Position numbers and translations under genes: made by a program. A DNA stretch of 64,000 bases, from NCBI GenBank assembly GCA_019843655.1, contig JACDQD010000005.1, positions 1,019,575 to 1,083,574 of the forward strand. The letters are read 5' to 3'. The notes beneath the pieces are model-generated. The model was not told where the DNA came from. It saw only the letters and a list, made by a program, of their open reading frames with translations, and made no database searches. Of the stretch, positions 43,601 to 46,600 are shown piece by piece. The stretch is from Lethocerus indicus (lineage: Eukaryota; Arthropoda; Insecta; Hemiptera; Belostomatidae). Position 1 is the stretch's first letter; each line of letters starts with the position of its first letter.

Positions 43601-46600
43601 ACAGATTATTTTAGCTTTTTAGAAGCGGAGCTGTGCTTTACTCCTTAGCTGTAGAACGAAGAAATTTTGAAACGGTAAAATTTCCTCCAGGCTCTGAGAA
43701 TAGAGCGACGATTTCATCGAATTTATAAAAATGTTTCGCGAATCGAGTTCTCCACAACAGTACCGACGGACATTTCACCGTAATCTTATTGCGAATCTCG
43801 GATTTGTCAAATAATTTGTTTTTTAAATCGAGTCCCATAAATCGCCAATCTAAATCTAGAGAAGAACAACCCGTAAACTGCATTTATTGTCTAAAGTTTC
43901 AGTTGAATATAGATTTTTATTAATAATAGTTTGACATTGATCACGGGAGAAAGTCAGTTTGCTCTTTAGATAGTAAATGCAACAGATTATTTTAGCTTTT
44001 TAGAAGCGGAGCTGCTTTACTCCTTAGCTGTAGAACGAAGCCTTCGGGCTCTGAGAATAGAGCGGTGATTTCATCGAATTTATAAAAATGTTTCGCAAAT
44101 CGAGTTCTCCACAACAGTACCGACGGACATTTCACCGTAATCTTATTGCGAATCTCCGATTTGAACAGAACAACACTTAGACAACAACGCAGATTTCGCG
44201 TGTTTCCGTCTCCACTCTCGCCGGTGTTCGGTCTTTCGCTGGACCGTCTTCAGTAGCGCTGCGTTGTCAGTCACTTTGGAAGGTGGCAAGCGGCCGCGAA
44301 ACCGGTCTAGCGAAAGACCGAACACCGGCGACAGAGGGGAGACAGAAACGCCCAAACCTACGGTATTCCAACCCTTGTGCGGACCTCAAGACAGGTATGT
44401 TAAATTAGTTGGGGATCTAAAAAAAAATGTTTTTTTATATACCTGTGTGGTCTGCAGGGTTGGAATACTGTAGGTCTCCTCTGGATGTTTGGTCTTTTGC
44501 TAGACTGGTTTCGTCCATCTTCAGTAGCGCTGTTGTGTTAGCACTTGTTGGATTTTGATACATCCTCACTGTGTCACTTTCACATGTACTGTCTATATCA
44601 TATATATATAAACAACTGACATACATTACAGTACATGTGAAAGTGACAGTGGGCAGTGAGGATGCCCAAAAAACAGCCAAAGTGCTAACAGTGACTAACA
44701 CTGCTACTGAAGACGGGGCGAGTAGCCGAAACCGGTCTAGCAAAAGACCAAACCAGCGAGAGGAGACAGAAACATCACGAACTTACACAAATGTTTTTTT
44801 CATACGAAAAGGTCTGATATACAACTATTGGATCGAGATGCTCTGTCTTCAGTAGTGAACCTTAAAAATATCCCTGCAGAAACCTTTTTATATACAGAAC
44901 CTCAGACTGTACTATGTTTGCTTCGGATATCGGCCAATTGCCGTAATAACTGTCCCGCTTATTCTAATAAATATTAGCGAATTCCAATTCCAATCAGCGT
45001 CCCAGAATGATGTTATTCGATATTTTTTACAGGACGGTACTTACGAGGTCTACCATCCGTTCGACCTGAACCTCTACCTGGACACGGTGCTCGAGGTCGT
45101 ACTCCAGTACGCCGGCACCAGGAACATCGTCTTCTCCTGTTTCCATCCGGACATCTGTTCGATGTGAGTTAAGGAAAAGAATCGATGAAAAGGGAAAAAT
45201 CAAGTTTAATATACCTGTTTTGTGGTCGGCGAGGGTTGAATGTTTCTGTCTCCTTCGCCTTGAGTTTGTTAGATCGTTTGCCGCCGCCATCTTCAGTAGC
45301 ACTGTGTTAGTCAGTCACTGTTAGCACTTTGGATGTTTTTTGGGCATCCTGAAAGTGACAGTGGGCAGTGAGGATGTCCAAAAAACATCCAAAGTGCCGA
45401 CAGTGACTGACAGAGCGCTACTGAAGATGGCGAGCGGCCGACAAACCGGTCTAGCAAAAGACCAAACTGCAGCGAGAGGAGACAGAAACATCACGAAATC
45501 TACAGAAAAAAATCAAGTTTTTCAAGAAGTCAAAGGTTGAAAACCCCACTCGGGTTGTCAACCGAATGCAACTTCGCCCATTCGTATTCGATTTCACTCC
45601 CGAGGGAACGTACGAGGTCTGTTCAAAAAGTGTCACGAAATAAGCATATTTAATTTACGGTTTTTTAGTAACCTCGTGTATCTCACTTATGCCGACAGTA
45701 TCAGCCGTCGTGAATGTTTAGTTGATCTTTTAAAGCCGCTTTTCTTGCACGTTTTCTGGGTTCGTCTTCGATTTTTACCCGTTCACGAAAAATGGATCGG
45801 AGAATCCGTGTCAAATTTTGTGCGTTAAAAACAAAATTAAGCGCGCCGAAGCGTATCGAATGTCGACTGTGTCGTACGGTGGTGAAGCTAGCTTAGACCG
45901 AAGCGACGTTTTATCGGCGGTAGAAAATGTTTTCGGAGGGCTGAGAAGATGCAAACGACGAAGGGCGTGTCAGGAAAAACGGACAAACAAATTGTGCACG
46001 AATTTTTGGCCGATAACAACACACTAATAACGCCGCGGCCACCGTATTCACCGGATCTAGCGCCCCCCCGTGTGACTTTTTCTCGTTACCAAAACTGTGA
46101 AAAGGCGCACGAAAGGACGACGCTGTGCTACAATCGAGGAGATAAAAACGGCGTCGAAGACGGAGCTTAACGAGATCATGAAAAATTAATTTTCGAAGCG
46201 CTTCGAGGATTGGAAAAAATGTCGGCACAACGTGTACATCTGGTGGGGGATTAAGGGGACACAATAGATATTCATAAATAAATAATTTTTCAAAAAAACC
46301 CGAAATTCGCGATGCTTTTTGAACAGACCTTGTATGTGTTCGTATTTCTAAGTGGTCTGTACTGCTGAAAATCGCCTAAGTGACCGAATTTCTGTATTTC
46401 AGGATCCGATTGAAACAGAACAAATACCCGGTGATGTTCCTGACGCAGGGCATAACCGACAAGTATCCGGCGTACCACGACCCTCGCTGCCAGAACATAC
46501 CGATGGCCGTACACTTTGCGCTCAACATGGGCATACTGGTAAGTCCGATTTATCATTATCGACAACTATTCGCTGTAACATTCATTCTGTTTTTAATATA

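Follow-up and report, generated by a model that had tools for sequence, protein, structure and literature searches.

Hairpin repeats in Lethocerus indicus probably represent terminal-repeat insertions of a Penelope-like element

The window, the whole 64,000-nt stretch of Lethocerus indicus DNA that we analysed, contains CBM_20 and GDPD frames (16334-16696 and 34524-34949), presumably exons of a glycerophosphocholine phosphodiesterase-like gene on the + strand; a satellite block (3096-11222) in which a 104-bp unit (4372-5074 and 6403-8234; 94 and 96% matches) lies among degenerate units of ~51-53 bp; and, on the - strand, a piggyBac-type transposase fragment (60826-61587) with DDE_Tnp_1_7 and zf-Tnp_2 matches. 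Two further frames on the - strand are gag-like and of Jockey-type look, one a fragment with a PRE_C2HC match (60148-60603) and the other (62692-63684) matching a Ranatra chinensis protein at 54% identity across 81% of the frame; no reverse transcriptase was present among the 20 window frames scanned. Among these features lie copies of a hairpin repeat, of which copy R is found just upstream of the GDPD match and copy X follows a candidate exon recognized by eye (frame 44859-45164, without a Pfam match).

Copy X (45195-45520), used as a blastn query, recovered 26 merged regions in the window, all of a single inverted-repeat family and some of them two halves of one copy, in agreement with the original prediction of at least 25 related copies and fragments (Table 1). 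Against a model of the hairpin arm, numbered from the hairpin centre outward, we found 51 matches of at least 25 bits, which together cover 6,367 of the 64,000 bases. A long self-complementary hairpin had also been predicted, and folding of copy X with DNA parameters gave -96.6 kcal/mol compared with -37.3 (s.d. 3.7) in shuffles, a z-score of -16. This self-complementarity extends up to about model position 180 but not beyond: the arms of the window copies have a common part to that point, followed by a tail of ~35-40 nt on one side only. The tail has a high content of A and C (33 of the 51 bases in the stretch folded) and lies at the left or right end of the element; no copy with two tails was seen in the window. 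Copies M, O and R have ~55-60 bp in common just outside the tail-less arm, in their left flanks (at 28875, 33006 and 34424), and this shared sequence may be a carried-along flank or the start of a subfamily. Many miRNA matches below cut-off were set aside, as they are expected of any long hairpin, and searches of phage records with the element, and of viral contigs with an exact pattern and a piggyBac protein, gave no match.

Table 1 Coordinates of hairpin copies and of the parts of copy X in the window (TSD, target-site duplication)
Feature	Position	Strand	Details
Copy A	1..356	+	runs off the window; arms separated by an AT repeat
Copy B	658..1186	+	inverted arm and two direct units, 131-bp period
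Copy C	1894..2763	+	inverted arm and about four direct units, 152-bp period; tail right; no clear duplication
Copy D	9673..9765	+	arm fragment
Copy E	18788..19086	-	tail left; clear duplication absent
Copy F	20615..20796	-	tail left; duplication 15 bp, 13/15
Copy G	21428..21631	+	without tail
Copies H, I, J	24525..25437	.	H and I have flanks in common (local duplication)
Copy K	25831..25992	-	12-bp duplications at 25831-25842 and 25981-25992
Copy L	28154..28638	-	tail left; duplication AACGRTTTATGT
Copies M1 and M (composite)	28769..29291	+	without tail
Copy N	32751..32853	+	internally deleted; tail right; within AT repeat
Copy O	33006..33282	+	tail right
Copy R	34424..34620	+	without tail
Copy S	35322..35574	-	partial tail left; duplication 18 bp, 16/18
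Copy T	37214..37597	-	tail left
Copy U	42361..42678	-	tail left; duplication ~12-17 bp
Copy V	44183..44405	+	tail right; clear duplication absent
Copy W	44437..44787	-	tail left; 12-bp duplication; weak RAGATH-1 hammerhead match at 44670-44742 (+)
Copy X, TSD copy 1	45195..45207		AAAAATCAAGTTT; 13/13 identical; 0/28 cross pairings as high
Copy X, tail-bearing arm, tail at left end	45204..45353	-	model 216 to 40
Copy X, tail-less arm	45350..45505	-	model 22 to 176
Copy X, TSD copy 2	45508..45520		
Copy Y	47353..47412	-	tail only; clear duplication absent
Copy Z	49160..49495	-	tail left; duplication 13/16

The 15 tail-bearing window copies had a mean flank match of 10.7, compared with 6.9 for re-paired flanks (permutation p 1e-5), and 11 of them reached p 0.05 singly (F, K, L, N, O, S, T, U, W, X and Z); eight of these 11 duplications are convincing, the exceptions being those of N and T, which sit in simple AT-rich repeats, and that of O, which is imprecise. 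All six duplications on which the original prediction was built, those of copies K, L, S, U, W and X, proved real (p <=0.01 each), and the coordinates for X and K were verified exactly. The same test gave no duplication for the tail-bearing copies C, E, V and Y and no flank repeat for six tail-less window copies (p 0.52).

Duplications were also evident across the genome. Among 39 further unique one-tail copies, 34 have a repeat of at least 10 bp with mismatches allowed, at least three of these 34 (in loci L019 and L025) not being clean target repeats. The group permutation p was at its floor both for these 39 copies, where the null is inflated by nested copies, and for 19 more, which came from 30 loci chosen by exact tail alone (two were without a tail hit and nine without a paired arm); singly, 9 of the 39 reached p 0.01 and 9 of the 19 reached p 0.02. 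The duplications are 10-18 bp long with a mode of 12-13 bp, and several of the longer ones include bases shared with the element ends. Their length is not fixed, as had been predicted, but it varies less than was claimed, 21 of the 34 being 12 or 13 bp. The targets are AT-rich: the 20-bp flanks of the 39 copies are 69% and 77% AT, compared with 59% in the retrieved loci.

In the genome (427 Mb, 209 contigs), where a first look returned 5,280 candidates, an exact 26-mer of the tail occurs at 1,087 places and the reversed pattern at none, and copies were found in two of ten 4-kb samples along contig C5. The 39 best-scoring relatives of the query, taken from the 41 best places with two on the short contig C155 left out, all lie at most 3.44 Mb from a contig end. 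We considered subtelomeric targeting and rejected it, because exact tails and upstream-bearing copies do not share this placement: the first 100 exact tails listed are all on contig C1 at 0.5-8.2 Mb, and many upstream-bearing copies are mid-chromosome. At L014 (C155) and L015 (C3), two elements and 400 bp past their tails are identical on both contigs, perhaps an uncollapsed haplotype. Across 45 unique hairpins (29 genomic loci besides the window's own, the loci being found by likeness to a one-tailed query), 39 have one tail, four have two and two have none, a distribution that departs from that of independent ends (p 5e-6).

By searching with a 76-nt query from a copy with extra central sequence, then with a 127-nt query, and walking upstream, we reached a coding part. 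Locus L086 has, in order, an arm with tail (727-906), a reverse transcriptase frame, a GIY-YIG endonuclease and an arm without tail (3388-3550), and this order is the layout of a Penelope-like element (PLE), with the arms as its terminal repeats (pLTRs); pLTRs on both sides of the ORF were seen at this one locus. The L086 frame (2167-3303) has a YVDD motif, matches RVT_1 at 21.8 bits (E 1.7e-4), under the Pfam cut-off of 29.6, and finds one reverse transcriptase in the PDB (E 4e-4); its GIY-YIG piece scores 26.1 bits against a cut-off of 22.6, but a scan of the whole 379-residue frame does not report the domain. The coding part is interrupted in the listed frames, which we left unmended, and a single-sequence fold of the L086 frame had a mean pLDDT of 37, so the structure was not used.

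Other loci repeat parts of this arrangement. At L084, a GIY-YIG domain (PF01541, 24.0 bits, cut-off 22.6) lies in a frame that ends ~280 nt upstream of an arm, and on the other side of the endonuclease is an inverted, tailed arm. With the L084 piece as query we found at least 150 GIY-YIG matches in the genome, all 150 scored out of 475 candidates; a GIY-YIG family search of the genome, whose first look misses this form of the domain, gave none at E 0.001. Remnants of the coding end are present at L082, L083, L085, L058, L031 and L039, the first three resembling L084 in that region; L083 and L085 have inverted arms and clear duplications of 12 bp or more, the repeat at L082 is not above cross pairs, and a clear duplication is absent at L084 and L086. 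A stretch of contig C1 (C1:10485205-10505639) with 13 GIY-YIG matches spaced ~1.69 kb apart constitutes a tandem PLE array, one unit of which (L087) holds an arm, the endonuclease, reverse transcriptase pieces and an inverted reverse transcriptase segment. The one-sided tail corresponds to what comes after the 5' pLTR in the PLE. What lies 3' of the L086 tail recurs in L059 (82.5% over 80 bp), a locus chosen only by its tail; among the first 84 tail ends, no shared sequence 3' of the tail was found besides identical, tandem or neighbouring loci, and no ORF start encoded by arm and tail came to light in peptide searches, whether padded or not.

We therefore regard the hairpin arm as almost certainly the pLTR of a PLE in the same genome, and pLTR-only PLE insertions are likely the best explanation of the family as a whole, assembly steps included. 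This bears on two other classifications. The original prediction, a SINE-like hairpin transcript moved in trans by a Jockey-type LINE, fits the prevalence of 12-13-bp duplications and the Jockey-like gag fragments in the window, and its central idea of insertion by reverse transcription at the target is retained; its SINE class and its Jockey partners are not, since both the arm, a PLE pLTR, and the tail come from a PLE that has a reverse transcriptase and a GIY-YIG endonuclease of its own. The window yielded neither a tRNA nor any Rfam family at gathering score, and we consider LINE-driven transposition very unlikely. A MITE or foldback DNA transposon, to which the long inverted repeats and the fairly narrow range of duplication lengths would be suited, is scarcely credible for a family whose tail is one-sided, whose junctions are varied and whose duplications differ in length; as the original prediction had argued, it is not a foldback element, for the same termini belong to the retrotransposon at L086, and no transposase was seen beside the arms in the loci read.

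What is new here is the junction between the two arms. The outer ends of the element are nearly fixed, whereas the inner junction is almost as varied as the copies themselves, with 49 forms among 52 unique copies, a count that comes from automatic alignment and is inflated by mutations in older copies. In a detailed set of 38 copies, in which each arm has an identity of at least 0.88 to a 204-nt reference, the outer end of the tail-less arm falls at reference position 161-169 in 33 and that of the tailed arm at 198-204 in 32. Toward the centre this same set has 35 junction forms: the longer arm reaches position 1-3 in 21 copies and the shorter stops at 32-55 in 32, with extra bases at 32 junctions. 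When viewed directly, the middles of 28 full-length copies also differ, the loop lying on either arm (17 and 11 of the 28). The diversity of junctions suggests that many hairpins form at insertion, meaning that the transcript need not itself be a hairpin, as the original prediction had supposed. Three of the junctions are each shared by two copies whose flanks differ (the pairs being 95.8, 96.3 and 98.7% identical); some hairpins may have been inherited whole, or junctions may recur. In 8 of 11 places a TATA-like box precedes position 1 by 25-36 nt, indicating that position 1 is probably the 5' end of the RNA.

The two arms of a single copy are more alike than re-paired arms, which fits an inherited hairpin. 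Co-variant cells within copies numbered 30, compared with 13.4 for re-paired arms (0/2000 shuffles), though many arm-variant sites are CpG-like by eye and repeated mutation confounds this test. At an indel-rich site, identical strings occur in 11 of 32 copies (5.8 expected) and arm lengths are equal in 15 of 32 (10.3 expected); there the tail-less arm is short and the tailed arm long in 10 copies, with the opposite in one. A column-wise variant table, too gappy to rely on, leans to neither the longer nor the shorter arm (127 and 121). It is possible, and we advance it tentatively, that a PLE-derived two-arm hairpin RNA is the template, that the PLE enzyme inserts it and that the unstable centre of the palindrome is later broken and re-joined, giving each copy its own junction: arm variants would then agree within copies in excess, indel states would be biased by side, and copies with different flanks could share the three junctions. 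Deletions at the centre need not, however, place the end of the longer arm at position 1-3, and at L084, where an arm of ~140 nt pairs with a stretch into the endonuclease, a very long palindrome would be required before repair. Most shared variants, moreover, are on one arm only (45 and 48 on either side, compared with 29 on both), many at CpG-like sites though. The arm-variant tests thus do not separate an inherited hairpin with a repaired centre from assembly at insertion.

A further alternative is self-priming, in which the 3' end of the first cDNA would fold back and copy itself, as has been proposed with an antisense template for PLEs of Adineta vaga (PMC3846280, partial text), and some junction fillers do resemble short snap-back copies of the arm end, for example AGTACA. 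We think this improbable here: a cDNA copied back on itself would be expected to extend through the tail and carry two of them, a state that only 4 of the 45 unique hairpins show, and it is the tail-less arm that is the longer one in 21 of 38 copies.

The reading that we prefer, and to which we give about an even chance, is that each hairpin is built anew from two cDNAs, both target ends being extended and the products end-joined; some hairpins may be copied whole. Transcription would start near arm position 1, behind the TATA-like box, and the PLE enzyme would make a staggered cut in both target strands. Within the pLTR/tail region, each cut DNA end would then prime a separate cDNA: one would begin at the far edge of the tail, the other at the near edge. 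Because these starts would be close to the 5' end of the RNA, the cDNAs would be only ~160-210 nt each, one reaching the RNA 5' end and the other often stopping early, and their end-joining would yield an inverted repeat that bears a single tail and has constant outer ends, a junction peculiar to the copy and a loop in either orientation. In twin priming of L1, too, cDNA synthesis is primed from both target ends and yields inverted segments; there the cDNAs come from different parts of one RNA, whereas here they would overlap almost fully.

Biochemical work on PLEs offers a precedent for several of these steps. In vitro, the protein of Poseidon PAc, a PLE of Anolis carolinensis, cuts and extends both target strands and starts reverse transcription inside the RNA at two sites, in an AC-rich stem loop, that delimit the tail (PMC11167929), and the proposed scheme resembles it in the starts inside the RNA at the tail bounds and in the cutting and extension of both strands. 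The two differ in that a set of inverted pLTR-only copies is not described in PMC11167929 and that start sites in vitro show no difference between strands; coordinated starts at the two ends, as the single tail in 39 of 45 hairpins implies, are not predicted by the in vitro data.

The arm also contains a hammerhead-like motif, GCUA-CUGAAGA-...-GAAA-CCGG-UC-UAGC. A descriptor of the hammerhead core with a 4-bp stem I, picked after the motif had been noticed, matches the consensus at one site, against 2 matching sequences among 20,000 shuffles; in the window it occurs at 13 places, compared with 0.5 per shuffled window, and by our own reading 12 of the 13 are inside arms. Stem II is poor, the Rfam score is 19.2 bits against a cut-off of 56.3, a free fold of the motif region does not show a ribozyme, and in the tandem copy C a hammerhead match is absent. 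All available PLE sequences are said to carry such motifs, usually minimal (PMC6155905, partial text). An ATG directly follows G8 in the arm, with the expected cut 23-25 nt downstream by our own count; similarly, in Poseidon PAc the start of the ORF lies at hammerhead stem II, C3 and G8 precede the ATG, and the cut is 26 bp downstream. Animal non-LTR retrozymes, as presented in the accessible part of PMC7229834, are likewise short type I hammerhead repeats in tandem, comparable with copies B and C, but they are tandem repeats with tested hammerheads whereas the present elements are hairpins with a one-sided tail; retrozymes may rely on PLEs (PMC8969392, partial text).

The closest likeness is to Penelope of Adineta vaga. 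According to the accessible text of PMC3846280, its pLTRs are ~200 bp long and carry a TATA box, an inverted pLTR is 37 bp shorter at one end, one of the inverted pLTRs may bear a 31-bp tail, and target duplications are short, palindromes occur at the inverted junctions and targets are AT-rich; each of these features, namely pLTRs, a shorter inverted pLTR, a one-sided tail, a TATA box, short duplications, junction palindromes and AT-rich targets, has its parallel here. The A. vaga elements are few and hold ORFs between their pLTRs, in contrast to the very many pLTR-only hairpins of L. indicus. Primate retro-DNAs offer a more distant parallel, being DNA-transposon sequence inserted by target-primed reverse transcription with longer duplications, but they are L1-based and have poly(A) and no terminal inverted repeats (PMC11195612, partial text), whereas the present family is PLE-based with inverted arms. 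Within the titles and abstract openings of the open-access literature, a scope outside which most subscription papers fall, we found no pLTR-only family of Penelope hairpins.

If our reading is true, the inverted pLTRs and one-sided tail of PLEs are direct footprints of two-ended target-primed reverse transcription, and the pLTR-only hairpins are its short-stop product amplified to SINE-like numbers. That many hairpins are assembled at insertion would explain an old oddity of PLEs: in the accessible parts of these papers, inverted pLTRs are explained by self-priming (PMC3846280, whose authors favour it with an antisense template), and the steps after first-strand synthesis are left to be validated (PMC11167929). 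The more than 1,000 exact tails constitute a large natural record of finished insertions, comparable with in vitro start sites. They also carry a warning, in that repeats catalogued as MITEs or hairpin SINEs may derive from Penelope.
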